Assembly (NCBI GenBank): GCA_023143455.1
Contig: JAGLHT010000001.1
Location: forward strand, 1 to 64,000
Reading direction: 5' to 3'
Origin: Desulfobacterales bacterium
Lineage (GTDB): Bacteria; Desulfobacterota; Desulfobacteria; Desulfobacterales; Desulfobacteraceae
Length of the DNA: 64,000 bases
The notes beneath the pieces are model-generated. The model had not been told where the DNA came from, searched no databases, and saw nothing but the letters and a program-made list of their open reading frames with translations. A program made the position numbers and the translations under genes. The stretch's first letter is position 1. Each line of letters begins with the position of its first letter. Positions 2,681 to 55,788 of this stretch are shown piece after piece.

Positions 2681-2697
2681 TAATATTGAATAATTGT

Positions 2698-4659: not shown

Positions 4660-4709
4660 AGTTGGATAAATGATACTTAAAAAGGAATAGAAAGGGGTAA
4701 TAAATATAA

Positions 4710-7088: not shown

Positions 7089-7102
7089 TAAAGGCAATTA
7101 AT

Positions 7103-7792: not shown

Positions 7793-7816
7793 TATTTATT
7801 TCACTGCATGATGAGT

Positions 7817-7831
7817 TGTGATAAAATCACA
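7817..7831. promoter_or_regulatory. 15-base palindrome, possible operator or short hairpin
   Basis: TGTGAT-AAA-ATCACA is a perfect inverted repeat between tsaB and the helicase gene. It resembles a CRP/FNR-family site, but its central spacing is 5 rather than the usual 6 bases. It could equally be a small mRNA hairpin. Confidence 0.3.
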
Positions 7832-7888
7832 TATTTTATAGTCGGCTAATGAATTAAGATAGATGAACCATAAACTTATAAAAAACTG

Positions 7889-23628: not shown

Positions 23629-23667
23629 GGATTCTCAAAATAATAAATACTATGTAATGGTTTAGAT

Positions 23668-30023: not shown

Positions 30024-30815
30024 ATGAGTAAAACTATGCAAACTGTAATTTTATGTGGTGGACTTGGTACTCGTCTGAGGGAAGAAACAGAATTTCGACC
30101 CAAACCCATGGTAAATATTGGTGACAAGCCAATACTGTGGCATATAATGAAAATATTCTCTTGTTTTGGGCATAGTGATTTTGTACTTCCGTTAGGTTAT
30201 AAGGGTGAAATGATTAAGGAATACTTCTGGCATTACGAATTAATGAATAATGATGTCACCATTGAGCTTGGGAAGCAGGATTCTTGTTGTTTGCATAATT
30301 GTCATGATGAAGCAGGGTGGGAAATAACTTTGGTAAACACAGGTGAGAAGACTTTAAAAGGTGGGCGTTTGAAACGCATTGAGAAGTACATAAAAGATGA
30401 TGCGTTTATGCTTACTTATGGAGATGGAGTTGCTGATATTGATATTAATGATTTGCTTGAGTTTCATCAACAGCATGGAAAGATTGCAACCGTTACTGGG
30501 GTTCCCCCAACTGCTAGATTCGGAGAACTTAGCATCAACAATGATCAGGTTATTTCTTTCCAGGAGAAACCGGAGGCTTCGAAATCAGGCCAAATAAGCG
30601 GTGGTTTTTTTGTTCTTAATAAGGATATTTTTGATTTTCTCTCTGAAGATGAGAATTGTGATCTTGAGTTTGGAGCTTTAGAAAAGATTGCAGCCGCCGG
30701 AGAATTAATGGTTTATAAGCATTCAGGCTTTTGGGCATGTATGGATACAGTTCGTGATGTGGAATATTTGAATAAACTTTGGGCAGAAGGCAATGCTAAA
30801 TGGAAAATATGGTAG
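30024..30815 (+). CDS. rfbF: Glucose-1-phosphate cytidylyltransferase
   Basis: Makes CDP-glucose from CTP and glucose-1-phosphate, the entry step to CDP-6-deoxyhexoses. The 263 residues have the nucleotide-binding loop LCGGLGTRLREETEFRPKPM (first 35 residues), GYKGEMIKEYF, TYGDGVADI and FWACMDTVRDVEYLN near the end, all typical of RfbF. The Shine-Dalgarno is AGGA. It overlaps rfbG by 16 bases, which suggests coupled translation. Confidence 0.95.
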   Translation: MSKTMQTVILCGGLGTRLREETEFRPKPMVNIGDKPILWHIMKIFSCFGHSDFVLPLGYKGEMIKEYFWHYELMNNDVTIELGKQDSCCLHNCHDEAGWEITLVNTGEKTLKGGRLKRIEKYIKDDAFMLTYGDGVADIDINDLLEFHQQHGKIATVTGVPPTARFGELSINNDQVISFQEKPEASKSGQISGGFFVLNKDIFDFLSEDENCDLEFGALEKIAAAGELMVYKHSGFWACMDTVRDVEYLNKLWAEGNAKWKIW

Positions 30816-31894
30816 CTCAAAAATTTTGGAAAGGAAAATCTGTTTTTATTACAGGGCATAATGGCTTTAAAGGTTCTTGGCTTTCTGTTTGGTTGCATAG
30901 AATGGGTGCGAACGTTACAGGGTATTCAATTGCTCCGCCAACCATACCTAATCTTTTTGAGCTAACAAGTATTGATAATGATATTACTACAATTAACAAT
31001 GATATTCGAGATTATAGCCTGGTAGAAAAAGCAATAAGAATCAATAAACCTGAAATAGTCTTTCACCTGGCAGCTCAGCCTCTGGTTAGTAGATCCTACA
31101 TAGATCCCATTGAGACCTATTCAACTAATATTATGGGTACAGTGAATATTTTAGAGGCGATTAGAAAAATAGATTGTGTCAAGGTAGTCATAAACGTTAC
31201 AAGTGATAAATGTTACGATAATAAAGAATGGGTTTGGGGCTATCGAGAAAATGATCCAATGGGAGGATATGATCCGTATTCAAGCAGTAAAGGATGTTCT
31301 GAGTTAGTCACTTCTGCATATCTTAATTCTTTTTTTAATCCTGAAAAATATGAAACACATGGCGTGGCCATAGCTTCAGTTCGTGCAGGCAATGTCATTG
31401 GGGGAGGAGATTTTGGCGAGGATAGGCTTGTTCCTGATATTGTGAGAGCTTTTTCTATGGATGAATCAGTTATTATTAGACAACCGAATTCTATCCGGCC
31501 GTGGCAACATGTTCTTGAACCACTTTCAGGTTATTTATTGCTTGCACAGAAACTTTATAATGGGGGCGCAAAGTATTCGGGAGCATGGAATTTTGGCCCC
31601 TCGGAGGATTGTGTGAAAACAGTTAGTTGGATTGTCGAAACAATTGCAAATAATTGGGGACAAAATGCAAAATGGATGATTGATAATGAGAACCATTTCC
31701 ATGAAGCACAATTGTTAAAACTCGATTGTTCCAAGGCAAGAAATTTACTGGGATGGAAAGCAATATTTAATATTAAAAAGACTTTAGAGTTGACAGTTGA
31801 CTGGTATAGAATTTATTGTAGCAATCCAAACTTGCTAAGGGAAAAAACAGAAAAACAGATAGCAGAGTATGAAAATCACACCTTTACCGCTTAA
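30800..31894 (+). CDS. rfbG: CDP-glucose 4,6-dehydratase
   Basis: An extended SDR enzyme that converts CDP-glucose to CDP-4-keto-6-deoxyglucose. The 364 residues have the family GHNGFKGSWLS motif, VFHLAAQPLV, the YxxxK pair in YDPYSSSKG, and RAGNVIGGGDFGEDRL. The ATG has an AGAAGG Shine-Dalgarno inside rfbF. It overlaps the 3,5-epimerase gene by 26 bases. With RfbF it gives the common precursor of CDP-dideoxy and branched sugars. Confidence 0.95.
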   Translation: MENMVAQKFWKGKSVFITGHNGFKGSWLSVWLHRMGANVTGYSIAPPTIPNLFELTSIDNDITTINNDIRDYSLVEKAIRINKPEIVFHLAAQPLVSRSYIDPIETYSTNIMGTVNILEAIRKIDCVKVVINVTSDKCYDNKEWVWGYRENDPMGGYDPYSSSKGCSELVTSAYLNSFFNPEKYETHGVAIASVRAGNVIGGGDFGEDRLVPDIVRAFSMDESVIIRQPNSIRPWQHVLEPLSGYLLLAQKLYNGGAKYSGAWNFGPSEDCVKTVSWIVETIANNWGQNAKWMIDNENHFHEAQLLKLDCSKARNLLGWKAIFNIKKTLELTVDWYRIYCSNPNLLREKTEKQIAEYENHTFTA

Positions 31895-32414
31895 AGATTC
31901 ATATTTGATTGTAGCTGATCCTTTTAAAGATGATCGAGGCCAATTTACTCGGATTTTCTGTAAAAAAGAGATATCAACAACTGGGTTAAAAAAGGATATT
32001 GTTCAGATAAATCATTCCTTGACTGTTCAGAAAGGTGCAGTGCGTGGGATGCATTTCCAATTTCCTCCTATGGTAGAGATCAAAATGGTTAAGTGTTTGA
32101 GTGGAGCCGTATTTGATGTAATTATTGATCTCAGAAAAGATTCTCCTACATTTTTGAAATGGCATGGAGTAATATTATCTGAAAAAAATTTAAATATGAT
32201 TTATATCCCAGAAGGTTTTGCCCATGGATTTCAGACAATGGAGAAAAACTGTAAACTTTTATATTTTCATACTGAATTCTATAATCCTGAATTCGAAGGT
32301 AGTGTTAGATATAACGATCCGTTAATAAAGATCTCATGGCCACTGGAAATTACTGATATCTCAAATAAAGATAAAGATCATCCACTATTAGCAGGGGATT
32401 TTTCTGGTATTTAG
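31869..32414 (+). CDS. dTDP-4-dehydrorhamnose 3,5-epimerase-like cupin enzyme
   Basis: A 181-residue RmlC-family epimerase. Catalytic features are the histidine in VRGMHFQFPP, DLRKDSPTF and the aromatic FYNPEFEGSVRYNDP region. Most RmlC proteins act on dTDP sugars. Because this gene overlaps rfbG and no dTDP-sugar genes are nearby, the substrate is more likely CDP-4-keto-6-deoxyglucose. Whether it epimerises C3, C5 or both is unknown. Confidence 0.85.
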   Translation: MKITPLPLKDSYLIVADPFKDDRGQFTRIFCKKEISTTGLKKDIVQINHSLTVQKGAVRGMHFQFPPMVEIKMVKCLSGAVFDVIIDLRKDSPTFLKWHGVILSEKNLNMIYIPEGFAHGFQTMEKNCKLLYFHTEFYNPEFEGSVRYNDPLIKISWPLEITDISNKDKDHPLLAGDFSGI

Positions 32415-32473
32415 TATGATTTGTAAAAATATGTTGCGCTCTCTGAGCTATGTAATTACTAAAGAAGGTTTTT

Positions 32474-33700
32474 ATGAAATGTCGATTTTGTAGTACTGAA
32501 CTGGTTCATATATTTGTTGATCTCGGAAGTTCTCCGGCCTCCAATTCTTTTTTATCAAAAGATCAATTGAACAAAGCAGAAACTTATTATCCATTGCGGC
32601 TTTTTGTTTGCGAAAAATGCTTCCTTGTACAAATTGATGAATATAAAAAATCAGATGAAATATTTAATAGTGACTATGCTTATTTTTCTTCTTTTTCTAA
32701 AACTTGGCTTGATCATGCAAGAAAATATGTTGAAATGATTACAGAGAGATTGAGATTGACTTCAAAATCCAAAGTAATTGAAATCGCATCAAACGATGGT
32801 TATCTATTACAGTATTTTATTGAAAAACAGATACCTTGCCTGGGAATCGAGCCAAGCTCTAATACCGCTGATACAGCCAGAAAAAAAGGTATCGAGACTA
32901 TAGTAGAATTCTTTACTGAAGATTTTGCAGAAAATTATATTCAGGATGCAAAAAAGGCAGATTTGATAATCGGTAATAATGTATTGGCTCATGTTCCTGA
33001 TATCAATGATTTTGTGACGGCTTTAAAGTTATTGCTTGATGATAATGGCAGTATTACTCTTGAGTTTCCGCATTTAATGCGGTTGATTGAGCATTCTCAA
33101 TTTGATACAATATACCATGAACATTTTTCATACCTTTCCTTGCATACTGTAAGGTCGATTTTTAAAAAGTCTGGATTAAGGATTTATAATGTTGAGGAAC
33201 TGATTACTCATGGAGGCAGCCTGCGTATATATGCCTGTCATGAGAAGAGCCATCAGAAAAACTTGGAATCAGTGAATCAATTGTTGGATAACGAGGCTCA
33301 ACAAGGTCTGATAGATTTATCGGCTTATCAACACTTTCAAGCTAAAGCTAATCGTATAAAAAATGATTTTTTACTTTTCCTCCTTGAGAAAAAACGTTTG
33401 GGTAAAACAATTGTCGGTTATGGTGCAGCTGCTAAAGGGAATACTCTTCTTAATTATGCAGGTGTTAAACCGGACCTATTAGAATATGTTTGTGATGCCG
33501 CTCCATCCAAACAAGGAAAATTCCTTCCCGGCAGCCATCTCCCAGTGGTTAATGAAAGAAAAATAAAAGAGTCTCAACCTGATTTTGTTGTTATTTTTCC
33601 GTGGAATATTAAAGACGAAATTATGAATCAGTTAGATTACATCAAAGAGTGGGAAGGTAGATTTGTAGTTTCTGTACCTGTGCTGGAGATATTTGATTGA
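32474..33700 (+). CDS. Sugar C-methyltransferase (TylC3-like, Zn-binding)
   Basis: A 408-residue SAM-dependent methyltransferase with the three-part layout of nucleotide-sugar C-methyltransferases: an N-terminal zinc-binding domain (CRFC at 3-6 and CEKC), a Rossmann methyltransferase core (VIEIASNDGYLLQYF), and a C-terminal domain with IVGYGAAAKGNTLLNYAG. Relatives add a methyl to C3 of 4-keto-6-deoxysugars on the way to branched sugars such as mycarose. The Shine-Dalgarno is AAGAAGG. Placement after rfbF, rfbG and the epimerase suggests a CDP-linked substrate. Confidence 0.87.
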   Translation: MKCRFCSTELVHIFVDLGSSPASNSFLSKDQLNKAETYYPLRLFVCEKCFLVQIDEYKKSDEIFNSDYAYFSSFSKTWLDHARKYVEMITERLRLTSKSKVIEIASNDGYLLQYFIEKQIPCLGIEPSSNTADTARKKGIETIVEFFTEDFAENYIQDAKKADLIIGNNVLAHVPDINDFVTALKLLLDDNGSITLEFPHLMRLIEHSQFDTIYHEHFSYLSLHTVRSIFKKSGLRIYNVEELITHGGSLRIYACHEKSHQKNLESVNQLLDNEAQQGLIDLSAYQHFQAKANRIKNDFLLFLLEKKRLGKTIVGYGAAAKGNTLLNYAGVKPDLLEYVCDAAPSKQGKFLPGSHLPVVNERKIKESQPDFVVIFPWNIKDEIMNQLDYIKEWEGRFVVSVPVLEIFD

Positions 33701-33743
33701 AGCCATATCCCATAGAGAGAGCATTTATGAAATGTGAAATATA

Positions 33744-34592
33744 ATGAGAATACTTGTAACAGGCGCAACAGGCTTTATCGGCACTTATGTAATTAATGAA
33801 CTGATAAAGAATTATCAATACAACATAATTGCAACTTCATCTGATATTAATAAAGCAAAATTGTTTGATTGGTTCCCTCATGTTCAATACTATGAATATA
33901 ATATTGACGATCAAAATAAAAATTATTTTGAATATTTTCAACAACCTGATTTGATGATTCATTTGGCTTGGCAAGGATTGCCAAATTATAAAGATCTATT
34001 TCATTTTGAGAACAATCTTTTTTCAAATTATTATTTTATTAAAAATATAATTGAGAGTGGTTTGAGATCTATAGTAGTGACTGGGACCTGTTTTGAATAT
34101 GGTATGCAAAATGGGTGCTTAGGAGAAGATTTTGTAACAATACCCGCAAATCCTTACGCTATTGCAAAAGATACTTTACGAAAATTTCTGGAACAATTAA
34201 AAACAAAGATAAATTTCAAGTTAAAATGGGTTCGTTTGTTTTATATGCATGGAGAAGGACAAAACTCCAATTCAATCTTAGCTCAACTTAATAAAGCTTT
34301 AAAAAATGGTGATTCGGTTTTTAATATGTCAAGTGGAGAGCAATTAAGAGATTATCTTCCGGTTGAAAATGTTGCTGAATATATAGTAAAAATAGCGTTA
34401 CAGGATAGAATTAATGGAATTATTAATTGTTGCAGCGGTATCCCTGTTTCAATCCGTGAACTTGTGGAGAATCATTTAGAGAAAAAGCAAAAAAAGATAC
34501 ATCTTAATTTAGGATACTACCCTTATCCTGATTATGAACCAATGGAGTTTTGGGGAGACAATAGAAAATTAAAAGCTATTTTAGAAAAATAG
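33744..34592 (+). CDS. NAD(P)-dependent sugar epimerase/reductase (extended SDR)
   Basis: A 282-residue short-chain dehydrogenase. It has the nucleotide-binding start RILVTGATGFIGTYV, LIHLAWQG-like LMIHLAWQG, the TGTCFEYG region and the YxxxK catalytic pair in NPYAIAKDTL. It follows the C-methyltransferase and is the best candidate for the final 4-keto reduction of the CDP-sugar. Small size and the LAWQG motif are common in such reductases. The exact stereochemistry cannot be read from sequence. Confidence 0.82.
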   Translation: MRILVTGATGFIGTYVINELIKNYQYNIIATSSDINKAKLFDWFPHVQYYEYNIDDQNKNYFEYFQQPDLMIHLAWQGLPNYKDLFHFENNLFSNYYFIKNIIESGLRSIVVTGTCFEYGMQNGCLGEDFVTIPANPYAIAKDTLRKFLEQLKTKINFKLKWVRLFYMHGEGQNSNSILAQLNKALKNGDSVFNMSSGEQLRDYLPVENVAEYIVKIALQDRINGIINCCSGIPVSIRELVENHLEKKQKKIHLNLGYYPYPDYEPMEFWGDNRKLKAILEK

Positions 34593-36336: not shown

Positions 36337-37032
36337 ATGAAAAAAGGAATTCTAATCCAAGCGAGGCTCTCATCAAAAAGATTTCCCAATAAAATGTTGA
36401 ACCAACTAGGTGGTGTGCCTTTAATCCAATACGTTTTCAATCGATGCAAAATATCCTCTCAAGCAGATATGGTCGGAGTAATCACATCGATTGAGCAAAG
36501 CGATGACCTGCTTTATGATTATTGCAAAAGTCAGAACATGCCTGTTTTTAGAGGTAGCCTAAATAATGTTCTTGATAGATATATTCAAGCAGCAAATCAT
36601 TTTGGCTGTAATATCCTTTGTAGGGTTTGTGGTGATTCCCCATTTGTTGACACCGTCTATATTGATAAATTATTTATGGCAGTTCAAAAGGGAGATGAAT
36701 ATTTATCCGTTAAGGGAGGGCTTAACGGTTTTTTTTCAGAAATAGTAACTCTGAAAGCATTAAGAAAAATGCAAAGCAATACTAATGCAGCAGATGATCT
36801 TGAGCATGTGACAAAATATATTAGAAAGAATCTTAAGATGTTTAATTATAGAATTTTTCAGATGAATACTATTGAAAAAAAATTACAAAATTTTTCTTTA
36901 ACTGTTGATTATGAAAATGATTTAGAGATAGCAAATTCAATTATCACTAAAGGATTACACGGATATGATTTTTTAACGGAAGAACTAATTGAGATTCTAA
37001 ATATAAATTATAATGAGCTAATTGAGTTATAG
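36337..37032 (+). CDS. SpsF-like cytidylyltransferase-family protein
   Basis: A 231-residue protein related to SpsF and CMP-Kdo/CMP-nonulosonate synthetases. The N-terminal nucleotide loop is IQARLSSKRFPNKML, followed by CRVCGDSPFVD, where the metal aspartate is expected. The ATG at 36337 matches the family start. A TTG at 36328 has better Shine-Dalgarno spacing and would add three residues. It sits one base before the amidotransferase gene. It may activate the acid sugar made by the NeuB-like protein. Confidence 0.75.
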   Translation: MKKGILIQARLSSKRFPNKMLNQLGGVPLIQYVFNRCKISSQADMVGVITSIEQSDDLLYDYCKSQNMPVFRGSLNNVLDRYIQAANHFGCNILCRVCGDSPFVDTVYIDKLFMAVQKGDEYLSVKGGLNGFFSEIVTLKALRKMQSNTNAADDLEHVTKYIRKNLKMFNYRIFQMNTIEKKLQNFSLTVDYENDLEIANSIITKGLHGYDFLTEELIEILNINYNELIEL

Positions 37033-37033
37033 T

Positions 37034-38878
37034 ATGTGTGGAATTGCAGGATATATAACAAAAACAAAAATAGACATTTCTGTGTTAAAAAGCATGGTAA
37101 ATGCTTTATATCATCGTGGCCCAGATGCTGAAGGGTTTTATTATAGCGAATCATATAATGCAGGGATGAGACGTTTAAGTATTAATGATTTAGAGTATGG
37201 GAATCAACCTTTATATAATGAAGATAGGTCTGTTGTTCTTTTTTATAATGGAGAGATTTATAATTCTCCAGAGTTGAGAAAACAACTTGAAATTAAAGGC
37301 CATCAATTTAAAACACTTTCTGATGGTGAGGTTATCTGCCATCTTTATGAAGAATATGGTGAAAAGGTTTTTGAGAAATTAGATGCTATGTTTGCGATTG
37401 CTTTGTGGGATGTCAAAAAAAAAAGATTATTATTAGGGCGTGATATTCCTGGAGAAAAACCGCTTTATTATACAGAATTAAAAGGAGGAGGCCTCGCTTT
37501 TGCTTCAGAAATAAAAAGTTTAATTAAGTTCCCATTAATAGAACTTGATTTAAATTATCAGGCTTTGTGGGATTTTTTAACTTTTTTGTGGATCCCTGAA
37601 CCTGAAACGGTGTATTCATCGATAAAATCATTACCTAAGTCTCACTATTTGATTTTTGATAAAAAAGGGTTTTGTTTAAAAAAGTATAACAATATCTTTA
37701 CAAAAGATTATGACGGTATGGATGAAGGTGAAATTGTAAAAGAAGTAAGAGAGGTTGTCAGTTTATCCATTGAAAGTAGATTGTTGTCAGATGTTCCCAT
37801 AGCATCATTTTTAAGCAGTGGGCTTGATAGCTCAATTGTGTCAATGCATGCAGCAAAGCATGTAGATAAGCTAACAACTTTTACAATAGGTTTTGAAAAT
37901 GTGTTCGATCCTTATCACGGGAGTGCCGATGAATCTAAACAGGCTGCTGCATTTGCAAAACAAATAGGCAGTGATCATCATGTTGTACGTGTTACAGCAA
38001 ATGATTTTAAAAAAGATTTAAGGACATTTTGTTTCCATGGCGATCAACCCTTTTCAGTGTCCTCTGGTTTAGGGATCATGTCAGTTGCAAGGGCTGCTCG
38101 TAAAAAGGGCATAAAGATTTTACTTTCTGGCGATGGGGCGGATGAATGTTTTGGGGGTTATTCTTGGTATGAGTATCTTAATACACCATGTGCTAATAAT
38201 CAGAACAAAGATGAATTGTCATGGCAGTATACAAGTATGGATAAAGAAATTCTGGCATCACGATTAACAAGCTATGGTGCACACAAGCGAGCCTGGGCAT
38301 GGCATTACTATGCATCTGAGCAGGACAAACAATTTTTATTTAATAAAGAGAAGTTTGAAAATGTTCAAACATCAACTCGTTTTTTTGAAAATTTTAAACA
38401 AGATCAAAATTGGCAAGCTGAAGATTTTATTAGACAGGATAGAGAGTTTTATTTCCCTTTTGAGATGTTGCGTAAGGTAGATCGAATGACAATGGCATTT
38501 TCAGTGGAAGGCAGAGTACCTTTTGCTGCACCATCAGTACTTGCGTTGGCAGATAAAATTCCATATTCAATGATGGTTAAAGGTAAGACATTGAAATGGG
38601 TACTGCGTCAGGCTTTTAAAAAAGATCTTCCGGATACTGTATTCAATCAGCCAAAGCATGGTTTTAATGTGCCTATAGACCATTGGTTGAAAAATGAGTG
38701 GAAAGATCTTATGGAAGATACTTTTTCAAACAGCTCAAAAGTCACAGCAATGGGTATGCTTACAAAAAAAGCAAAAGAGAATGCATTTGTATTGTTAAAT
38801 GATAATAACCGCATTTGTGGTCATACGATCTTTTCAATGATTATGTTGAATATGTGGTTAGAGGAGAACAATGATTGA
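37034..38878 (+). CDS. asnB: Asparagine synthase-like glutamine amidotransferase
   Basis: A 614-residue class II glutamine amidotransferase joined to an N-type PP-loop synthetase. The start was set at ATG 37034 so that C2 of MCGIAGY becomes the N-terminal nucleophile after Met removal. The PP-loop is FLSSGLDSS; LLSGDGADECFGGY and GRVPFAAPSV are also present. In glycan loci such enzymes often amidate sugar carboxylates rather than make asparagine. It overlaps the NeuB-like gene by 8 bases, supporting a linked function. Confidence 0.85.
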   Translation: MCGIAGYITKTKIDISVLKSMVNALYHRGPDAEGFYYSESYNAGMRRLSINDLEYGNQPLYNEDRSVVLFYNGEIYNSPELRKQLEIKGHQFKTLSDGEVICHLYEEYGEKVFEKLDAMFAIALWDVKKKRLLLGRDIPGEKPLYYTELKGGGLAFASEIKSLIKFPLIELDLNYQALWDFLTFLWIPEPETVYSSIKSLPKSHYLIFDKKGFCLKKYNNIFTKDYDGMDEGEIVKEVREVVSLSIESRLLSDVPIASFLSSGLDSSIVSMHAAKHVDKLTTFTIGFENVFDPYHGSADESKQAAAFAKQIGSDHHVVRVTANDFKKDLRTFCFHGDQPFSVSSGLGIMSVARAARKKGIKILLSGDGADECFGGYSWYEYLNTPCANNQNKDELSWQYTSMDKEILASRLTSYGAHKRAWAWHYYASEQDKQFLFNKEKFENVQTSTRFFENFKQDQNWQAEDFIRQDREFYFPFEMLRKVDRMTMAFSVEGRVPFAAPSVLALADKIPYSMMVKGKTLKWVLRQAFKKDLPDTVFNQPKHGFNVPIDHWLKNEWKDLMEDTFSNSSKVTAMGMLTKKAKENAFVLLNDNNRICGHTIFSMIMLNMWLEENND

Positions 38879-39569
38879 AATAATAGCTGAGATAGGACAA
38901 AATCATAATGGTGATATTTCTTTAGCCAAAGAGATGATAGCCGTTGCTAAGGACAATGGAGCTGATGCGGTGAAATTCCAAGTTTATGATGTGAATCATA
39001 TATTCACCCAAGAGGATAATCCCTGGTATGAATATAATTGCATCACAGAGTTGTCTAAAAAAGATGTTGTAGCGCTATCAGAAGAATGTAAAAAACAGAG
39101 TATTGAGTTTATTGCATCTGCATTTGATCCTGAACGAGTATATTGGTTAGAAGAGATAAATGTTAAGCGTCATAAAATAGCCTCAAGGTCTATAAATGAC
39201 AATAAGTTAATAGATGCAATGCTCAAGACAAATAAGCCTATTATTGTATCGCTTGGTATGTGGGAAGGTTTTAAATTCCCAGAAATACAAACCAAAGAGT
39301 CAATTTTTTATTTGTATTGTGTCTCAAAGTATCCAACTGAAATGAGTGATTTGAAATTAGATAAAATTGATTTCAAGAAATACTCAGGGTTCAGTGATCA
39401 TACCATAGGTATTACAGCTGCAAAAATTGCTATTTCAAAAGGAGCAAAAATAATAGAAAAGCATTTTACATTAGATAAAAATATGTATGGTCCAGACCAT
39501 AAAGGCAGCATGACTCCAAAAGAACTAAAAGAGTTAAATATTTTTAGAAAACAAGCAGAGATATTATGA
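38871..39569 (+). CDS. NeuB-like nonulosonate synthase lacking the SAF domain
   Basis: A 232-residue protein with the NeuB TIM barrel: IAEIGQNHNGDISLA, VKFQVYD, RHKIASRS, FSDHTIG and IIEKHFTLDKNMYGPDHKGS. Usual NeuB/PseI proteins are about 340 residues and end with a SAF domain that covers the partner active site; this one stops just after the barrel. The stop is followed by a 4-base overlap with the next gene, so it is not an obvious frameshift. It would condense phosphoenolpyruvate with an amino sugar if active. Confidence 0.8.
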   Translation: MIEIIAEIGQNHNGDISLAKEMIAVAKDNGADAVKFQVYDVNHIFTQEDNPWYEYNCITELSKKDVVALSEECKKQSIEFIASAFDPERVYWLEEINVKRHKIASRSINDNKLIDAMLKTNKPIIVSLGMWEGFKFPEIQTKESIFYLYCVSKYPTEMSDLKLDKIDFKKYSGFSDHTIGITAAKIAISKGAKIIEKHFTLDKNMYGPDHKGSMTPKELKELNIFRKQAEIL

Positions 39570-40939
39570 ATACACCAAAAATTACAGTATATGTCGTTTC
39601 ACATAACCATGAAAAATTTTTATCTGATGCCATTGAAAGTGTTCTTCGCCAGTCTGTTGAAGGCTGGGAACTTTTTATCATTGATGATGGATCAGAAGAT
39701 AAGAGTAGAGAAATAATCAATTTATATAAAGGAGATGATAGAGTACAGATATTTTCAACAGAAGGTATAGGTCTTCCGGCTGTCTGTAACTTGGCTTTGG
39801 ATAGAGCCAATGGAGAATATATTGTCCGTCTTGATGGTGATGATCTTTTTGATGAGAATATTTTGTTGGTTTTGAGCAATTACTTAGATAACAATGTTGA
39901 AACAGCATTAGTTTTTCCTGATTATTTTTTAATAGATGAATTTAACGAAATATTTGCCCATGAGAGGCGCAATAAAATATTTGATTCAAACTATGTTATT
40001 GATATACCACCGAATGGAGCATGCACTATGATACGCACAAAGGTGCTCAAAGAAGCAGGAGGGTATCGTGAAGACCTTGGTGCTCAAGATGGGTTTGATA
40101 TGTGGAGCAAGATCTCCAAAAAACATGCAACTGGTAACGTTAATCTTCCTCTTTTTTATTATCGGAGGCATAGCGACAATCTTACTAATAAAATACATTT
40201 TATTCTAAATGCAAAACGTAGAATAAAAAAAGACAGTATTTTAAAAGTTTTGGATAAAAATAGACCGTTTACAGCTGTTATACCATGCCGTAAGAATTAT
40301 GATTTCTGTGAAGATGTGTGGAAACAAAAAATAGGGGGAAAATCCATCTTAGAATTTGGTATTGATGAATGTATAGCATCTGATGTTTTTGACAGGATAG
40401 TAGTTGCATGTGACAATCCTGATGTTGATTCGATTCTTTCAAAATACAACGATAAAAGATTAAGCCTTCATATAAGAAATTCAAAAGATACAATTAGGTC
40501 GAGGAAAATAGTTCCAGCTTTAAATAAAATAGTTCGAGAACAGGATCCTGATTATAATGGTATAACAGTTATAAGATATATACAATCTCCGTTTGTTTCA
40601 AAAGAAAGTCTTGAAGAAGCACTTTTCACTCTAATTATGAATGATGCAGATTCTTCCACAGGAGTTGAACAGATAAATCATGCAATGTACAAGAAACATC
40701 CTCATGGTTTGATTAGGTTAAATGATGACAATGATTTCAAAACTGATTTTGACAGCATGTATAAAGAAGCTAATGTAGCCTTGGCAGTGAAAAATTCAAA
40801 CTTTAAAAATGGATCCTTAACAGGAACAAGAATTGCACATTTTGAGATAGATAAAAAAGAATCATTTGTAATTTTTTCAGATGAAGACTTAGAAGTAGCA
40901 AGGATATTATTTCAGTTGCGTGAAGGTAAAAATGTTTAA
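39566..40939 (+). CDS. GT2 glycosyltransferase fused to a NeuA-like cytidylyltransferase domain
   Basis: A 457-residue two-domain protein. Residues 1 to about 225 are a family 2 glycosyltransferase (ITVYVVSHNHEKFLSDAIES, FIIDDGSED, YIVRLDGDDLFDE). Residues about 234-457 resemble CMP-nonulosonate synthetases: TAVIPCRKNYDF, GGKSILEFGIDEC, RIVVACDNPDVDSI and VIRYIQSPFV. The usual glycine/lysine-rich NTP loop is shortened to IPCRKN, so activity is uncertain. A transferase fused to the enzyme that activates a donor sugar beside a NeuB-like gene suggests channeling. Confidence 0.78.
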   Translation: MNTPKITVYVVSHNHEKFLSDAIESVLRQSVEGWELFIIDDGSEDKSREIINLYKGDDRVQIFSTEGIGLPAVCNLALDRANGEYIVRLDGDDLFDENILLVLSNYLDNNVETALVFPDYFLIDEFNEIFAHERRNKIFDSNYVIDIPPNGACTMIRTKVLKEAGGYREDLGAQDGFDMWSKISKKHATGNVNLPLFYYRRHSDNLTNKIHFILNAKRRIKKDSILKVLDKNRPFTAVIPCRKNYDFCEDVWKQKIGGKSILEFGIDECIASDVFDRIVVACDNPDVDSILSKYNDKRLSLHIRNSKDTIRSRKIVPALNKIVREQDPDYNGITVIRYIQSPFVSKESLEEALFTLIMNDADSSTGVEQINHAMYKKHPHGLIRLNDDNDFKTDFDSMYKEANVALAVKNSNFKNGSLTGTRIAHFEIDKKESFVIFSDEDLEVARILFQLREGKNV

Positions 40940-41531
40940 ATTAATAAAATCAATTTTCAATGTATTTATTTTGCGTGTGCAGGGTGCCAAGATTGGAAAA
41001 AAAGTAAGAATACTAGGAAAAGTAAATGTTCTTTGCAGGGATGGAGCTTCTTTAAAAAATTTGATTATTGAAGATAATGTGGAAGTCGAGGGTGTTTTGT
41101 ATTTGCGGGTACGTAAGTCAGGTAGAATAATCATTGAAAAAAATGTAAAGATCGCGACGGAGGTATGGCTTGTAACTGCAAACGAATCTGAGTTGAGGAT
41201 AAGAAAGAATGCCATTATTGGGAGCTATTGTATTTTAAATGGTGGTCATGGGATTGATATTGGAGAAGACTCATGGCTTGCCGGTTTTGTCTATTTGAAC
41301 AGTTCGGATCATAAAATAGAGCTGGGTGAAGTAATTAGAAAGCAGGGATATATTGGTGCTAAAATTATTATTGGTGCAAATAATTGGATAGGTGGACATG
41401 CTTTTTTTAATAAAGGTGTTATAACTGGTGAAGGCGTTGTTGTGGGTGCTGGGGCAGTTGTTACAAAAAGTTTTAATACAAATTCTGTTATTGTGGGTAA
41501 TCCAGCAGAACTTTTGAGATATAGAACGTAA
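40932..41531 (+). CDS. Left-handed beta-helix acyltransferase
   Basis: A 199-residue hexapeptide-repeat acyltransferase (LbH family). Imperfect hexapeptide repeats run from about 25 to 185, with VVVGAGAVVTKSF and IVGNPAELLR at the end, as in sugar O-acetyltransferases of the WcaF/NeuD-like kind. The ATG at 40932 with GAAGG five bases upstream was chosen over an upstream GTG at 40920. It overlaps the fusion gene by 8 bases. The likely donor is acetyl-CoA. Confidence 0.82.
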   Translation: MFKLIKSIFNVFILRVQGAKIGKKVRILGKVNVLCRDGASLKNLIIEDNVEVEGVLYLRVRKSGRIIIEKNVKIATEVWLVTANESELRIRKNAIIGSYCILNGGHGIDIGEDSWLAGFVYLNSSDHKIELGEVIRKQGYIGAKIIIGANNWIGGHAFFNKGVITGEGVVVGAGAVVTKSFNTNSVIVGNPAELLRYRT

Positions 41532-41532
41532 G

Positions 41533-42153
41533 ATGAAGAAAATAGCAATTATTAATTATGGGCTAGGAAACCTTCGTTCTGTTGCTGGAGCTGTGGAAAG
41601 GGTGGGGTTTAAGCCTTTAATTACAAATAGCCCTAAAGAAATAAGAGACTCGGAGAAAATGATTATCCCAGGTGTCGGCGCATTTGGTGACGGGATTAAA
41701 AATATCAATGAATTAAATATAATAACCGACTTGGAAAAATTTATTTATGAGGATAAGAAACCTGTTTTAGGTATTTGTCTTGGATTTCAGCTTATGGCTT
41801 TGTCTAGTTGTGAGTTTGGTAGGCATGATGGGCTTGGTTGGATTGACGCTACAGTAGAAAAAATGGAAGGTAATAATGGTGCATATAGATTGCCCCATGT
41901 TGGGTGGAGTGATTTGATTCAACTACAAAGTAGTATTTTATTTGAGAAGATACCTAAAGAAGCTCTTTTTTACTATGTTCACTCTTATCATGTTGTTTGT
42001 AAAACAACAAAAAATATTATTGGTGAATGTGAATATGGGAATAAATTTGTTTCTGTAATTGAAAAAGATAATATTTATGGCACACAATTTCACCCTGAGA
42101 AGAGTCAAAAATGGGGTCTGCAACTATTGAAGAACTTTCTTGAGAAAGCATAA
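41533..42153 (+). CDS. hisH: HisH-like glutamine amidotransferase subunit
   Basis: A 206-residue class I glutaminase. The nucleophile is C82 in GICLGFQLM, and the catalytic His/Glu occur in GTQFHPEKSQKWG. It is the paralog of histidine-pathway HisH found in surface glycan loci, where it supplies ammonia to a HisF-like partner and a WbuX-like amidotransferase. It is followed after 3 bases by the HisF-like gene. Histidine genes are absent around it, supporting the glycan role. Confidence 0.87.
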   Translation: MKKIAIINYGLGNLRSVAGAVERVGFKPLITNSPKEIRDSEKMIIPGVGAFGDGIKNINELNIITDLEKFIYEDKKPVLGICLGFQLMALSSCEFGRHDGLGWIDATVEKMEGNNGAYRLPHVGWSDLIQLQSSILFEKIPKEALFYYVHSYHVVCKTTKNIIGECEYGNKFVSVIEKDNIYGTQFHPEKSQKWGLQLLKNFLEKA

Positions 42154-42156
42154 TAA

Positions 42157-42903
42157 ATGGTTAGAAAACGCCTAATAATAGTTCTAACTTTTAATAACGG
42201 AGTGCTTTTCAGGACAAGGAATTTTCAACCTGATTACAGATATACTTTGAATTTTGTTGATGCATGGTCTGTAGATGAAGTTATTTTGTTAGATATTAGT
42301 AGGCCTGGAAAAGGCAACAGAGAAATTTTTTATAATGTTGTTAAAAAGTTTGCTAGAAATTGTTTTGTACCATTAACCGTTGGGGGAGGGGTAAGAAACC
42401 TTGATGATTTCAAACTATTGTTAGGTGTTGGTGCGGATAAAGTTGCAGTGAATACTGGCTTTATCGAAAATGATAGATTAGTAGAGGAAGCTTCGAAATT
42501 ATATGGATCCCAATGCGTAGTTGTTTCAATGGATGTAAAAAAAAACCAAAACAGTGGATATGATGTCTATTCGCATTTTGGTACTAAACGAATTGGCTCT
42601 GACGCTGTTAGCTTTTCAAAGCATGCAGTTGACAAAGGGGCTGGGGAAATCCTAGTACAATCAATCGATAGAGATGGTATGCTTGAAGGGTATGATAATG
42701 AAATAGCGGCTTTGATTTCTAAATCAGTTTCGGTTCCAATTCTTTTATGTAGCGGAGCTGGTAATTGGGAGCATTTTGTTCAAGGCTTTTCTAAAGGTTG
42801 TGCTTCTGGAGTGTGCACTACAAATATTTATCACTTTACAGAAAGCAGTATTAATAGCGCAAAAAAATATATAATGAAGAAGAATATAAATATTAGAATT
42901 TGA
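42157..42903 (+). CDS. hisF: HisF-like partner lacking the first catalytic Asp
   Basis: A 248-residue (beta/alpha)8 barrel related to HisF. The VPLTVGGGVRNLDDF phosphate loop and the later VVVSMDVKK aspartate (canonical D130) are kept. The N-terminal strand that carries D11 in biosynthetic HisF reads LTFNNGVLFRTRNF, so that catalytic residue is missing. This fits the glycan-locus HisF2 group, which should pass ammonia from HisH rather than form imidazole-glycerol phosphate. It lies between HisH-like and WbuX-like genes. Confidence 0.85.
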   Translation: MVRKRLIIVLTFNNGVLFRTRNFQPDYRYTLNFVDAWSVDEVILLDISRPGKGNREIFYNVVKKFARNCFVPLTVGGGVRNLDDFKLLLGVGADKVAVNTGFIENDRLVEEASKLYGSQCVVVSMDVKKNQNSGYDVYSHFGTKRIGSDAVSFSKHAVDKGAGEILVQSIDRDGMLEGYDNEIAALISKSVSVPILLCSGAGNWEHFVQGFSKGCASGVCTTNIYHFTESSINSAKKYIMKKNINIRI

Positions 42904-42910
42904 GTTTAAT

Positions 42911-44083
42911 ATGGAGGTGAGTTTGGTTTATTTACCTGATGATGAAACAGAGATTGGCGCCAGAAAAATATCCTATTGTAAAAAATGTCTGATGCCAGAT
43001 TCAAGACCAAGGATTGTATTTGATGACCTTGGAGTATGCAATGCATGTAGATACTCAGAGGAAAAGGTCTTAGGAATTGATTGGGCCGCAAGGGAAGAAG
43101 AATTTAACAAAGTACTTAATAATTATAGGTCAAAGGATAATTCTTGGGATTGTATTGTGCCGTGGAGCGGTGGAAAAGATAGTAGCGCGATTGCATTCAA
43201 ATTAAAGTATGAGTTTGATATGAACCCCTTATTAGTGACATTTTCTCCCATGATGCCAACTGAGACTGGCAATCATAATCGTGAGGAATTAATAAAGGCA
43301 GGGTTTGACCATATTTTTTTTCGACCTAATCAAAAAGTTCACCGTTATCTTGCAAAACGATTTTTTATTGAAAGAGGACATCCAAAAATTGCTTGGGATG
43401 CTGGAGTAAACACTATTCCAGTTCAAGTTGCTGTTCAGTATAATATACCTCTAATTTTTTATGCGGAGCACGGTGAGACTGAATATGGTGGAAAAGTTTT
43501 AAATCAAGAATCAGCAAAATTAAGGACTTTTACTGAGGTTATAGAACATCAGATCGGTGACGATCCTAAAAATTGGATTGATGAGAAAGTTTCAGAAAAA
43601 GATATTTTACCATATTTGTATCCAAATTCTAATGATGTCGATAAGGTTGATATAAAAGCTTATTACTTTGGATATTTTTTTAGGTGGAGCATGTTTGAAA
43701 ATTATAATTTTATAAAAGAAAAAATCGATTTTAAGATTCATCCTAATGGCCGCACATCAGGCACTTTTACAAATTTTGACAGCATTGATGACAAAATGGA
43801 CCCTCTTTATTATTATATGCAATATATTAAATTCGGATTTGGTAGAACTGTTCGAGACGCCTCACGCTTTATTCAAAATGGTCATATGACATATCACGAG
43901 GGTTTAGAAAATGCAAAAAAATATGACGGAGAGTTTCCAAACGAGCATCTTGATGAAGTGCTTACTTATTTAGACATTAATGAAGAGCAGTTCAATGAGA
44001 TTGTTGAAAAACATCGCAACGATGAAATCTGGAATAAAAATGATGGTGATTGGAAGCTTAATTACCCTCTTCCTGGCAATTAA
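42911..44083 (+). CDS. WbuX/PseA-like N-acetyl sugar amidotransferase
   Basis: A PP-loop enzyme of up to 390 residues in the N-acetyl sugar amidotransferase family (WbpG, PseA, WbuX). These use ammonia from HisH/HisF to turn an N-acetyl group into an acetamidino group. It has zinc cysteines C23/C26 and C43/C46, and the ATP loop PWSGGKDSS near 84-92. The ATG at 42911 may not be the start: GGAGG at 42913-42917 is perfectly spaced for a TTG at 42923, giving 386 residues. It follows the HisF-like gene by 7 bases. Confidence 0.87.
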   Translation: MEVSLVYLPDDETEIGARKISYCKKCLMPDSRPRIVFDDLGVCNACRYSEEKVLGIDWAAREEEFNKVLNNYRSKDNSWDCIVPWSGGKDSSAIAFKLKYEFDMNPLLVTFSPMMPTETGNHNREELIKAGFDHIFFRPNQKVHRYLAKRFFIERGHPKIAWDAGVNTIPVQVAVQYNIPLIFYAEHGETEYGGKVLNQESAKLRTFTEVIEHQIGDDPKNWIDEKVSEKDILPYLYPNSNDVDKVDIKAYYFGYFFRWSMFENYNFIKEKIDFKIHPNGRTSGTFTNFDSIDDKMDPLYYYMQYIKFGFGRTVRDASRFIQNGHMTYHEGLENAKKYDGEFPNEHLDEVLTYLDINEEQFNEIVEKHRNDEIWNKNDGDWKLNYPLPGN

Positions 44084-45027: not shown

Positions 45028-46305
45028 ATGACTAAACTTGCTATTTTGGGCGGGGAATCTTTAATTGATAAGCAATTGAAACCATACAGATCCATTGGGC
45101 CTTTGGAAATCAAGGCTGTTGAAGAAACCATGCGAACAGGTGTGATTTCAGGTTTTTATGGGGACTTCTGTAATGAGTTTTGGGGAGGCCCTAAGGTTAA
45201 TGAGTTTGAAAACACATGGGCTTCTCGTTTTGATGTGAGACATGCAGTAACTGTGAATTCAGCAACTTCTGCACTTTATGCAGCCATTGGAGCCATTGGA
45301 ATCTCTCCGGGTGATGAAGTTATTGTACCACCATATACTATGTCAGCAACTGTTATGGCACCTATTGTTTATGGTGGTATTCCTGTGTTTGCAGATATTG
45401 AGTCAGATACTTTTGGCTTAGATCCTGAGTCTGTTAGACAAGCCATAACATCCAAAACAAAGGCTATTTTAACAGTTAATCTATTTGGCCATACATCTCA
45501 ACTTGATGAGCTAATGGATATTGCTAAACAAAACAATATTTACCTTATAGAAGATAATGCTCAAGGTCCTTTGGCAGAAGATAATGGTAGACTCGCAGGT
45601 ACAATAGGCCATATAGGAGTTTTTAGTTTAAATTATCATAAGCACATACATACTGGTGAAGGTGGTATTTGTGTTACAGATGATGATAACTTGGCATTAC
45701 GAATGAAACTCATAAGAAATCATGGTGAGAATGTTGTTGAACCGTTAGAAATTGATGATCTCACTAATCTTATAGGTTTTAATTTTAGATTAACTGAAAT
45801 ACAAGCTGCTATAGGGATAGAGCAACTAAAAAAAATTGATCACCATGTTGAAAAAAGAGAAAAAATAGCAAAATCACTATCTGAAAGCTTGAATGATTTA
45901 CCCGGGATTTTTCCTCCTATTATTAGGAAGGGGTGTCGGCACGTATTCTATGTATGGGGGGCAAAATTTGATGAAAAAATAGTTGGTGTAAGCCGTGATG
46001 TTTTTAGTAAAGCCCTTGAAATGGAAGGTTTCCCTCATTTTACCGGTTATTGTAAGCCTTTATATCATTTGCCTGTTTTTCAGAAACAAGTTGCATTTGG
46101 TAACCAAGGACATCCTTTTAATATTAATAAAAATGTTAATTATGAAAAGACTGATTGCCCAGTTTGCGAATATATGTATCAAAAGGCATTTATTGGATTT
46201 GAACCGTGTGCATATGACATAAATGATAATGACTTAGATTTGTTGATTGCTGCTTTTAGAAAGGTATATAATCAGAAGGACAAGCTAATAACTATGAGTA
46301 AATAA
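45028..46305 (+). CDS. DegT/DnrJ/EryC1/StrS-family sugar aminotransferase
   Basis: A 425-residue PLP-dependent aminotransferase acting on keto sugars. The PLP lysine is K207 in NYHKHIHTGEGG, and VNSATSALYAAIGA, EDNAQGP and IGFNFRLTEIQAAIG are conserved. It differs from the dehydratase at 57574, where the same position is histidine. The stop overlaps the start of the SpsF-like gene by one base. It probably makes an amino sugar that is then activated or oxidised by the next genes. Confidence 0.87.
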   Translation: MTKLAILGGESLIDKQLKPYRSIGPLEIKAVEETMRTGVISGFYGDFCNEFWGGPKVNEFENTWASRFDVRHAVTVNSATSALYAAIGAIGISPGDEVIVPPYTMSATVMAPIVYGGIPVFADIESDTFGLDPESVRQAITSKTKAILTVNLFGHTSQLDELMDIAKQNNIYLIEDNAQGPLAEDNGRLAGTIGHIGVFSLNYHKHIHTGEGGICVTDDDNLALRMKLIRNHGENVVEPLEIDDLTNLIGFNFRLTEIQAAIGIEQLKKIDHHVEKREKIAKSLSESLNDLPGIFPPIIRKGCRHVFYVWGAKFDEKIVGVSRDVFSKALEMEGFPHFTGYCKPLYHLPVFQKQVAFGNQGHPFNINKNVNYEKTDCPVCEYMYQKAFIGFEPCAYDINDNDLDLLIAAFRKVYNQKDKLITMSK

Positions 46306-47030
46306 TGATTAGAATTATTGCTAGTATAGAGGCCAGAATGGGCTCATCCAGACTACCTGGGAAAGTTTTATCAGATGTTTGTGGTCAACCTGCTTTGTCA
46401 CGTCTTTTAAAACGGCTCAAGCGATGTGAAAAATTAGATGATATTATTCTTGCTACTACTACTTCTCCAAAAGATGACCTTCTTGTTAAATGGGCTGAAT
46501 CAGTACAACTTAAATATATTCGTGGTAGTGAAAAAGATGTTTTGTCAAGAGTTGTGCAAGCCCATCAAAGAATGAAAACAGATATTATTGTTGAAATTTG
46601 TGGTGACATGATACTTCTTGATCCAGAGTTGATTGACAGAGGGATTCAAACATTTTTAAATAAAAAATGTGATGTGGTTACAACAACAAATAAGCCTTCA
46701 TATCCAATCGGGATTGATGTAGTCATCTTTAGATATGATGATATAGAATGGATAGAAAAAAATATATTTGATCTCGAAGTCAGAGAACATGTGTCTTTGT
46801 ATTTTTTTAACAATCCTGAAAAGTATAAAATTATTAATTTGACAGCACCTGACGCATATAAGTTCCCAAATTATAGATTGGTTCTTGATTATTATGAAGA
46901 TCTTGATTTGATAAGACAAATTTATAAGAGGTTAGAGCCTGATTTTGGTGACAATTTTAGTATCCATGAGATAATTGAATTGTTGAAGAGAGAGCCTGAA
47001 TTATTAAAAATTAATAGTCATTTAAAGTAA
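46305..47030 (+). CDS. SpsF-like cytidylyltransferase-family protein (second copy)
   Basis: A 241-residue protein related to SpsF and CMP-Kdo synthetase. The nucleotide loop IEARMGSSRLPGKVL is closer to consensus than in the protein at 36337; VEICGDMILLDPEL is the expected metal region. It is not a tandem duplicate of the other copy, as most of the sequence differs. It overlaps the aminotransferase stop and is followed by a Gfo/Idh oxidoreductase, so it belongs to that module. Confidence 0.8.
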   Translation: MIRIIASIEARMGSSRLPGKVLSDVCGQPALSRLLKRLKRCEKLDDIILATTTSPKDDLLVKWAESVQLKYIRGSEKDVLSRVVQAHQRMKTDIIVEICGDMILLDPELIDRGIQTFLNKKCDVVTTTNKPSYPIGIDVVIFRYDDIEWIEKNIFDLEVREHVSLYFFNNPEKYKIINLTAPDAYKFPNYRLVLDYYEDLDLIRQIYKRLEPDFGDNFSIHEIIELLKREPELLKINSHLK

Positions 47031-47031: not shown

Positions 47032-48021
47032 ATGAGTAATCCATTAAAGACCATAATAATTGGCTTTGGACAGATTTCTACCGGCTTTTCAGAAGATCCT
47101 GAAATGGCAAAACATTTCAAGTATGCAACCCATGCTCAGGTTTTAGCTGATAATGAAAAATTTTCATTGGAAGCGGTTGTTGATCCATCAGATAAAGCAA
47201 TTGAGATTGCAAAATCAAAATGGAGGATTCCGATTGCAGTGAAAAATATAGAAGAACTACCTAAATCTTTTTCACCCGAAATTGCTGTGATTGCAACACC
47301 TCCTGATTGTCGAAAAGAGATTTTAAGCAAACTGCCAAGTCTCAAAGGTATTATACTTGAAAAGCCTATTGGCACAAATATCAAGGACTCCCAAAAATTT
47401 GTTAATGAATGCAAAAATAGAGGCTTGACAGTGCAGGTTAATTTTTGGAGGAGAGGTGATGAGTTTTTTCAAAAACTTGCAAATGGCGAATTGGAAAAAA
47501 TGATCGGAAAACCACAAGTTGCTTTTGGATTGTATGGAAACGGGTTAAAAAATAATGGGAGCCATTTAATAGATTTTGCAAAAATGTTATTTGGTAATAT
47601 CAAAGATATATCTGTGCCTTTTAATGAATCAGCTTACCTGGAAGGTCCAATAAAGAATGATGTCAATATTTCTTTTAGTTTAAATTTTAGCGATAATATT
47701 AATGTTGCATTTCAACCTGTCCCTTTTAAAAACTACCGTGAAGTAGGTATAGATATCTGGGGAGAAAAAGGTAGACTTGCACTGTTGCAAGAAAGCCTTG
47801 GTATATATTATTATCCTAAAAGTAGGAATAGAGGCCTTTTAAATGAATTTGAAATAGCTTCTGACAATTTAATCAAGGTTAATCCAACATGCGGCATGGC
47901 CCTATTTAGGCTATACGATAACCTATTCAAAGCAATAAAAACTGGTGAAAATTTATGGAGCACATTGGATGGGGCTATGATAGTTGATGAGGTTATACAT
48001 AATATTTTAAGTGAAATTTAG
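47032..48021 (+). CDS. Gfo/Idh/MocA-family oxidoreductase
   Basis: A 329-residue NAD(P)-dependent dehydrogenase. The N-terminal Rossmann domain starts TIIIGFGQIS, followed by ATPPDCRKE and the EKPIG motif with catalytic lysine (IILEKPIGTN). The C-terminal domain has GLYGNGLKNNGSHLIDFAKM. Enzymes of this family in amino-sugar clusters oxidise or reduce a sugar hydroxyl or ketone. It lies one base after the SpsF-like gene. Confidence 0.85.
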   Translation: MSNPLKTIIIGFGQISTGFSEDPEMAKHFKYATHAQVLADNEKFSLEAVVDPSDKAIEIAKSKWRIPIAVKNIEELPKSFSPEIAVIATPPDCRKEILSKLPSLKGIILEKPIGTNIKDSQKFVNECKNRGLTVQVNFWRRGDEFFQKLANGELEKMIGKPQVAFGLYGNGLKNNGSHLIDFAKMLFGNIKDISVPFNESAYLEGPIKNDVNISFSLNFSDNINVAFQPVPFKNYREVGIDIWGEKGRLALLQESLGIYYYPKSRNRGLLNEFEIASDNLIKVNPTCGMALFRLYDNLFKAIKTGENLWSTLDGAMIVDEVIHNILSEI

Positions 48022-52996: not shown

Positions 52997-53935
52997 ATGA
53001 GTTTTAATATTTTAGTAACAGGTGGTGCAGGCTATTTAGGCTCAGTACTTGTACCAGAACTTTTAAAGGCGGGGCATAAGGTGACTGTGATTGATAATTT
53101 TATGTTTTCACAGAATCCTCTCATGGACTGTTGCTATTCTGACAGTTTTGATGTTGTTAGAGGTGATGCCCGTGATGAGAGCCTTCTTAGAGCTTTATGC
53201 AAAGGTAAAGATATCATTATACCTTTAGCCGCGTTAGTGGGAGCACCAATGTGCGACCGGGACAAAATTGGTGCAAAAACAACAAACTTTGATGCCATTA
53301 AATCATTGATTTCTTTTTTATCTAAAGAACAGCGTATCGTTGTGCCAACAACCAATAGCGGCTATGGGATTGGACAGAAAGATGTTCATTGTACAGAAGA
53401 ATCACCTTTAAAGCCAATATCGCTTTATGGTAAAATGAAAGTTGAATCTGAAAAACTTATATTAGATAGAGGCAATGGTATAAGCTTGAGGCTTGCAACA
53501 GTATTTGGAGCTAGCCCACGAATGCGATTGGACCTTCTTGTAAATGATTTTACATACCGCGCAGTAAATGATCGATTTGTTGTTATTTTCGAGGGCCATT
53601 TTAAACGTAATTACATACATATTCGTGATGTTGCTAAGGCATTCTTACATTCAATAGATAATTTTGATTCAATGAAAAACGAGGCATATAATGTAGGCTT
53701 ATCAGATGCAAATATCTCAAAGTTGGAGCTTTGTGCCAAGATCAAAGAACAAATTTCGGATTTTGTTATTATAGAAGAATCTATTGGAAAAGACCCAGAT
53801 AAAAGGGACTATATAGTTTCAAACGAGAAAATAGAAAGCACAGGTTTTAAACCTGGGTTCTCGCTTGAAATAGGAATTAAAGAATTAAAGAAAACTTATA
53901 CAATTATTAATAATAGTAAATATAGTAATGTATAA
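52997..53935 (+). CDS. NAD-dependent nucleotide-sugar epimerase/dehydratase
   Basis: A 312-residue extended SDR. It has NILVTGGAGYLGSVLVPELL for NAD binding, IIPLAALVGAPMCD, TTNSGYGIG and the YxxxK pair in SLYGKMKVESEK. The stop overlaps the start of the HddC-like gene (TAATG). Being first in the heptose/transketolase block, it may oxidise, dehydrate or reduce the GDP-heptose or its branched product. Its exact reaction is not clear; it is not an obvious GDP-mannose 4,6-dehydratase. Confidence 0.8.
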   Translation: MSFNILVTGGAGYLGSVLVPELLKAGHKVTVIDNFMFSQNPLMDCCYSDSFDVVRGDARDESLLRALCKGKDIIIPLAALVGAPMCDRDKIGAKTTNFDAIKSLISFLSKEQRIVVPTTNSGYGIGQKDVHCTEESPLKPISLYGKMKVESEKLILDRGNGISLRLATVFGASPRMRLDLLVNDFTYRAVNDRFVVIFEGHFKRNYIHIRDVAKAFLHSIDNFDSMKNEAYNVGLSDANISKLELCAKIKEQISDFVIIEESIGKDPDKRDYIVSNEKIESTGFKPGFSLEIGIKELKKTYTIINNSKYSNV

Positions 53936-54639: not shown

Positions 54640-54659
54640 GTTTAGGAAAAATAATAACA

Positions 54660-55727: not shown

Positions 55728-55788
55728 GAGATGAATAACTTTAATAGTATTTTTGAAAATGGAAGAATAATTATTGGAAAATTATAAA

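Follow-up and report, generated by a model that had tools for sequence, protein, structure and literature searches.

NeuB-type enzymes are thought to need a swapped SAF domain for their sugar, and AsnB-type enzymes that amidate uronic acids are known from O-antigen clusters. In the active site of NeuB, Arg314 is the only residue from the SAF domain, where it positions the N-acetyl group of ManNAc (PMC6795526). The CMP-activating enzyme NeuA depends on two aspartates: In the Neisseria enzyme, D209A leaves activity too low to measure, and D211A lowers kcat ∼15,000-fold (PMC2901514). The window analyzed here, a stretch of 64 kb from a Desulfobacterales bacterium, holds a large polysaccharide cluster, inside which lies the second, unusual ulosonate-type module that a sequence-only reading of this DNA had proposed; it is indeed distinct from the pseudaminic-type set at 22066-25848. 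In that separate set, PseG is fused to an acetyltransferase-like domain, and PseI, which has a SAF domain, is fused to a DegT aminotransferase (726 aa). Also in the window, RfbF, RfbG, an RfbC-like epimerase, a C-methyltransferase (PF08484), and a reductase (30024-34592) look like a pathway to a CDP-linked C-methyl branched sugar, and HddC/HddA-like heptose genes are followed by a split transketolase pair (52997-57548).

The module had been read as five genes with overlaps of 4–8 bases or a 1-base gap. All five ORFs are intact and on one strand, and the junctions match that description (+1, −8, −4, and −8 bases, from the SpsF-like gene through AsnB, NeuB, and the GT2 fusion to the acyltransferase gene). 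A boundary at 41531 was ruled out, because the run continues with short gaps (+1, +3, and +7 bases) through HisH, HisF/WbuZ-like, and WbuX genes; the operon is therefore an eight-gene unit spanning 36337-44083 (Table 1). The SpsF-like gene starts at either TTG 36328 or ATG 36337.

Table 1. Genes of the eight-gene unit and associated genes, with window coordinates
Feature	Coordinates	Strand	Evidence
SpsF-like CTP_transf_3 protein, proposed CMP-activating enzyme	36337..37032	+	PF02348 104.7 bits
AsnB-like glutamine amidotransferase	37034..38878 (ATG start)	+	PF00733 256 bits, PF13537 142 bits
SAF-less NeuB barrel, 232 aa, proposed PEP-dependent ulosonic acid synthase with altered acceptor site	38871..39569	+	PF03102 179.2 bits (gathering cut-off 22.1)
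GT2 (∼residues 3-213) fused to degenerate NeuA-fold domain (∼233-457), 457 aa	39566..40939	+	PF00535 79 bits, PF02348 38 bits
Hexapeptide-repeat acyltransferase	40932..41531 (ATG start)	+	PF00132, WbbJ/WcaF-like NCBIfam matches
HisH-like glutaminase subunit, same run	41533..42153	+	TIGR01855 230.6 bits (above cut-off 105.4)
HisF/WbuZ-like cyclase-type subunit	42157..42903	+	TIGR03572 228.6 bits (below cut-off 299.7)
WbuX/PseA-type N-acetyl sugar amidotransferase	42911..44083	+	TIGR03573 340.9 bits (above cut-off 203.2)
DegT/DnrJ aminotransferase, associated gene	45028..46305	+	PF01041 272.7 bits
Second SpsF-like CTP_transf_3 protein, associated gene	46305..47030	+	PF02348 90 bits
Gfo/Idh/MocA oxidoreductase, associated gene	47032..48021	+	PF01408

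A trio of AsnB, a ∼230-aa NeuB, and the GT2 fusion was found in nine loci from several phyla, a recurrence that argues against a chance grouping. We refer to these as type-1 loci. With the short NeuB as the sole query, ∼85,000 species genomes yielded five loci (59%–64% identity), each of which has AsnB immediately upstream and, downstream, the GT2 fusion. Two more, G482 and G889, came from genome searches that used the fused domain as query, and a plasmid search found plasmid p6 of Azospirillum argentinense MTCC4035 (short NeuB 55%, fusion 47% identical). Where measured, the short NeuBs of trio loci are 55%–64% identical to that of the window. Hosts comprise the window's genome, other Desulfobacterota-like genomes, Omnitrophota, Synechococcus, and the cultured alphaproteobacterium A. 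argentinense, and the type-1 module is rare (three of 384 Omnitrophota genomes, one of 339 from the cyanobacterial phylum, and two of 395 sampled from the window's phylum). AsnB lies directly upstream of NeuB in all nine type-1 loci, mostly overlapping it, and the other genes vary. The HisH-HisF-WbuX trio also adjoins the module in loci L028 and L029, the DegT aminotransferase is co-located again in L073, L082, and L084, and the second SpsF-like protein and the oxidoreductase both have homologs in L027, L073, and L082 (the oxidoreductase also in L084). The limited literature that we searched held no description of the SAF-less clade or the module, and its full text yielded nothing relevant on a SAF-less NeuB or the SpsF/NeuB/GT combination; judged on that literature, both seem to be an undescribed variant of NeuB-type systems.

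The lack of a SAF domain in this NeuB, suspected from the outset, proved genuine. The ORF stops where the barrel does, and its stop codon lies within the overlap with the GT2 gene, leaving no SAF remnant; moreover, the ORF is intact and its short length is conserved in the nine type-1 loci, which rules out a frameshift or truncation. All clade members extend fewer than 10 residues past the barrel, compared with 71–82 in typical NeuBs. The window protein reaches neither of the NCBIfam equivalogs NnaB (TIGR03569; 197.9 vs. 399.65) and PseI (TIGR03586; 162.2 vs. 340.25). Maximum-likelihood analysis places the short NeuBs in a single clade (branch support 100/100) apart from 37 SAF-bearing NeuBs, and a phage copy (L085) groups with them. 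That copy comes from an IMG/VR contig of a putative phage, which carries at 1003-7999 two NeuBs (one SAF-less), a NeuA-like gene, WbuX, a PseB-like dehydratase, and a DegT aminotransferase, with these sugar genes near putative structural genes. SAF loss as such is not unique to the window NeuB, since PDB 6ncs, L104, L106, and several phage NeuBs are also without the domain. SAF-less NeuBs of ∼266–290 aa occur in L106 (14727-15599), L104 (16126-16926), L090, L094, and L099, and those placed in the tree fall outside the short-NeuB clade.

We mapped the residues of 10 short NeuBs, one of them masked as N at some positions, onto Neisseria NeuB numbering. Equivalents of E25, K53, K129, and D247 are kept in all 10; those of S213, H215, E234, and H236 in all nine readable sequences (one row masked as N); and those of Q55, S132, and Y186 wherever readable. 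The N74 loop is deleted, F288 and R314 are gone with the missing tail, and an Arg occupies the Nm133 position in 10/10. We considered a clade-specific Arg (window R106) as a universal substitute for the SAF domain, a candidate weakened by phage L085, which is without it. An AF2 model of the window NeuB (pLDDT 88) forms a complete barrel on its own, from which the helix after strand 5 is absent, and its whole-length matches are 6ncs (Z 32.2), Neisseria NeuB (30.7), and KDO8P synthase (∼19.8). Because the PEP and metal residues are kept, the N74 loop, F288, and R314 are lost, and the model is complete, alignment and model read most directly as a predicted catalytic barrel that is complete but altered on its acceptor side.

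The GT2 protein tells a different story at its C-terminal end. Its N-terminal part matches GT2 enzymes (closest solved glycosyltransferase, 6p61 from Leptospira), and its C-terminal part has a NeuA fold by Foldseek (E 1e-8 to 1eyr and 2e-9 to 9t4z, TM by target 0.66–0.67), as read from a poor AF2 model of the whole fusion (pLDDT 53, six sequences). The altered IPCRKN loop noticed earlier is a conserved feature, present as IPCR followed by K/R/E and N/H/R in 9/9 type-1 fusions. We aligned 20 fusions, in two groups, with five NeuA-type and nine SpsF proteins. The P-loop Lys21 equivalent is found in 0/20 fusions, compared with 5/5 NeuA-type and 9/9 SpsF proteins; the first metal aspartate, Asp209, in none of the 20 and the second, Asp211, in four (the window fusion has V and F at these positions); and Gln104 in 0/20, compared with three of the five NeuA-type proteins. 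The sequence-only reading had activation and transfer coupled in this one polypeptide, an idea that finds no support, given the absence of Lys21, Asp209, Gln104, and, mostly, Asp211; an active CMP synthetase in the fusion was rejected on this loss. We conclude from the residues compared that the fused domain is not a CMP-sugar synthetase of known mechanism. Since it is conserved with invariant residues of its own (in 9/9 type-1 fusions, Trp at N22, Tyr/Phe at S15, and Tyr at Q104), its role is probably one of binding or structure. No relative of the fused domain was found in viral contigs at the sensitivity used.

The SpsF-like protein of the operon is the better candidate for a CTP enzyme, because its motifs are intact (IQARLSSKRFPNK, CGDSPF, and TVDYENDL) while the catalytic residues of the fused domain are lost. 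The P-loop Ser and Lys are kept in 9/9 SpsF proteins compared, and its closest solved structures are cytidylyltransferases (6oew), followed by KdsB. On these motifs, the SpsF-like protein is more likely than the fused domain to carry out CTP activation. The AsnB-like protein carries the glutaminase Cys2 (MCGIAGY) and ATP loop (SSGLDSS); Cys2 and the synthetase motif are invariant in a six-row alignment, and the closest solved structures are the hydroxyamidotransferase 7ylz, then E. coli AsnB.

Neighboring genes show which parts of the module travel together. Almost every locus has a CTP_transf_3 gene adjoining the short NeuB or close to it, and in most this gene overlaps the trio. Fusions of NeuB barrel, SAF, and CTP_transf_3 adjoin the GT2::degenerate-NeuA fusion in L079 (3731-5569, − strand) and L080 (4096-5871, + strand), and these tie the CTP_transf_3/SpsF class to NeuB products. 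NeuB genes lie near the type-2 fusion in 10 of 11 loci read, all except one on a short contig, and NeuA::NeuB fusions are often there too. In L059 (6256-7518, − strand), L074 (8023-9192), and L075 (7234-8400), the GT2 fusion and a NeuA::NeuB fusion are separated by a gene of the LarA type (lactate racemase family). At least six of the 384 Omnitrophota genomes have a short NeuB, and the GT2 fusion is present in four of the six listed, compared with 0.17 expected by chance; in the remaining two (G701 and G712; loci L110 and L111), a separate GT2 without the fused domain adjoins the short NeuB, and no AsnB was seen in the stretch read around it. This arrangement suggests that the steady core is short NeuB plus GT2, usually with CTP_transf_3, to which AsnB and the fused domain are additions. 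AsnB was likewise not seen near the short NeuB in L078, L082, and L085, for five such loci with L110 and L111, so amidation is not intrinsic to the synthase. A CTP_transf_3 protein fused to a D-2-hydroxyacid dehydrogenase lies beside the short NeuB in L078 (8458-10218, − strand), and NeuA adjoins a 2-hydroxyacid dehydrogenase in L057. The module in the window has no 2-epimerase or PseG-type step within it (flanks at other loci were partly read), which leaves the earlier label of a nonulosonic (C9) acid tentative.

We propose that the module makes and transfers an acidic or amidated ulosonic sugar destined for a surface polysaccharide, a scheme to which we give about an even chance. The SAF-less NeuB would condense PEP with an aldose that the SAF arginine need not hold by its C2 group; the AsnB-like enzyme would use glutamine and ATP to turn the new carboxylate into a carboxamide; the SpsF-like protein would convert the sugar to its CMP derivative; and the GT2 domain would transfer it. 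The fused NeuA-like domain would be a noncatalytic relic, perhaps one that binds the donor or keeps the enzymes together, and the acyltransferase, HisH-HisF-WbuX, and nearby DegT, oxidoreductase, and methyltransferase genes may decorate the sugar. What the acceptor is, in which order the steps run, what AsnB amidates, and what the fused domain does are inferred here. The SpsF, oxidoreductase, and DegT genes may have an analogy in the 8-amino-Kdo pathway. Of the amidated product suggested earlier, the tight linkage of the AsnB-like gene to NeuB has held up, and it makes the amide plausible. Several points count against the scheme: AsnB was not seen near the short NeuB in five loci, the sugar genes beside the module in L029 could give AsnB a uronic acid to amidate, we know of no GT2 enzymes that use CMP-ulosonates, and no amidated ulosonic acid was found in the literature searched.

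It is possible, if somewhat doubtful, that AsnB amidates another sugar of the repeat unit, such as a hexuronic acid, and that the product of the short NeuB is a normal ulosonic acid without an amide, with the operon shared through one polysaccharide. Precedent lies in the uronic-acid-amidating enzymes of O-antigen clusters; L029 has a UDP-glucose dehydrogenase and UDP-sugar epimerase right upstream of the module, from which AsnB could draw a uronic acid; and AsnB is not found with every short NeuB. However, AsnB keeps its place immediately before NeuB in nine loci from several phyla while other genes vary, and no uronic acid genes were recognized in L028, where the cluster starts at SpsF. A chemically different course, which we judge unlikely, is that the short NeuB adds PEP to the ketone of a nucleotide-keto-sugar and AsnB amidates the pyruvyl branch, giving a C-branched sugar with the branch CH2-C(OH)2-CONH2. 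To our knowledge, PEP synthases of the NeuB fold act on aldehydes, which counts against it, as does the CTP_transf_3 gene of nearly every locus, needless for a nucleotide-linked branched sugar; nor is a nucleotide-sugar dehydratase consistently adjacent. The attraction is that NeuB and AsnB are the pair such a branch would need, on an acceptor side opened by loss of the SAF domain and N74 loop, and that the product would resemble shewanellose, 2-acetamido-2,6-dideoxy-4-C-(3'-carboxamide-2',2'-dihydroxypropyl)-D-galactose, whose branch is formally an amidated pyruvate (PMC4052302). In the literature searched, shewanellose was found in one review only, and no biosynthetic genes for it were found.

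Two further readings concern single proteins. The fused domain retains the NeuA fold, and its new invariant residues in 9/9 type-1 fusions show constraint, so it could still couple activation with transfer as an active CMP-sugar synthetase using a different metal/phosphate site; yet with the K21 and D209 equivalents lost in 20/20 fusions and D211 in 16/20, intact CTP_transf_3 proteins alongside, and the GT2 occurring without it in L110 and L111, we find this highly improbable. We give equally little credence to the short NeuB being an inactive relic or the partner of another NeuB. Its SAF domain and acceptor contacts are missing and the window's genome has other NeuBs, but all compared catalytic residues are kept wherever readable, the protein is conserved over phyla, and it is the sole NeuB-type protein found in G574 and G889 (other matches <∼40 bits).

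A widespread SAF-less clade that arose once yet keeps the chemistry would reveal how NeuB-type enzymes can rebuild their acceptor site, and it suggests that a class of acidic or amidated surface sugars awaits description. The recurrent fusion of GT2 to a degenerate NeuA-like domain, nearly always near ulosonate genes, offers a testable case of an activating enzyme turned helper domain. The addition of PEP to a keto-sugar would, if true, provide the so far missing logic by which shewanellose-like C-branched sugars are made. Because the module is present in the cultured soil bacterium A. argentinense, the question can be answered.

Set against known systems, the module combines familiar parts in altered form. 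The likeness to shewanellose is purely chemical, in that an amidated pyruvyl branch is what NeuB and AsnB could make. The WbuX/HisH/HisF acetamidino-sugar system has the same three genes, here in one run with the module, but the HisF-like subunit falls under both curated cut-offs. The AsnB-like enzyme shares the glutaminase Cys and ATP loop of AsnB-type amidotransferases (7ylz; E. coli AsnB, 1ct9) and differs from them in its linkage to NeuB, and the SpsF-like protein keeps the P-loop and KdsB-like aspartates of KdsB/SpsF cytidylyltransferases (PDB 6oew, 2y6p). The fused domain has the fold of NeuA (PDB 1eyr, 6ifd) without its phosphate-loop lysine, metal aspartates, or Gln104. The closest solved structure to the short NeuB by sequence and fold, that of a NeuB-type protein from Leptospira borgpetersenii (PDB 6ncs; 290 aa), is likewise barrel-only, but it is placed among SAF-bearing NeuBs in the tree and has Cys where the short-NeuB clade has its invariant Arg. 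With NeuB, PseI, LegI, and SpsE (PF03102; e.g., PDB 1xuu), the short NeuB shares the barrel fold, the PEP and metal residues, and nearby genes for CTP activation and glycosyl transfer; unlike them, it has no SAF domain, and hence neither Arg314 nor a swapped-dimer cap, its N74 loop is deleted, and it belongs to a separate 100/100 clade with an invariant Arg at the Nm133 position.
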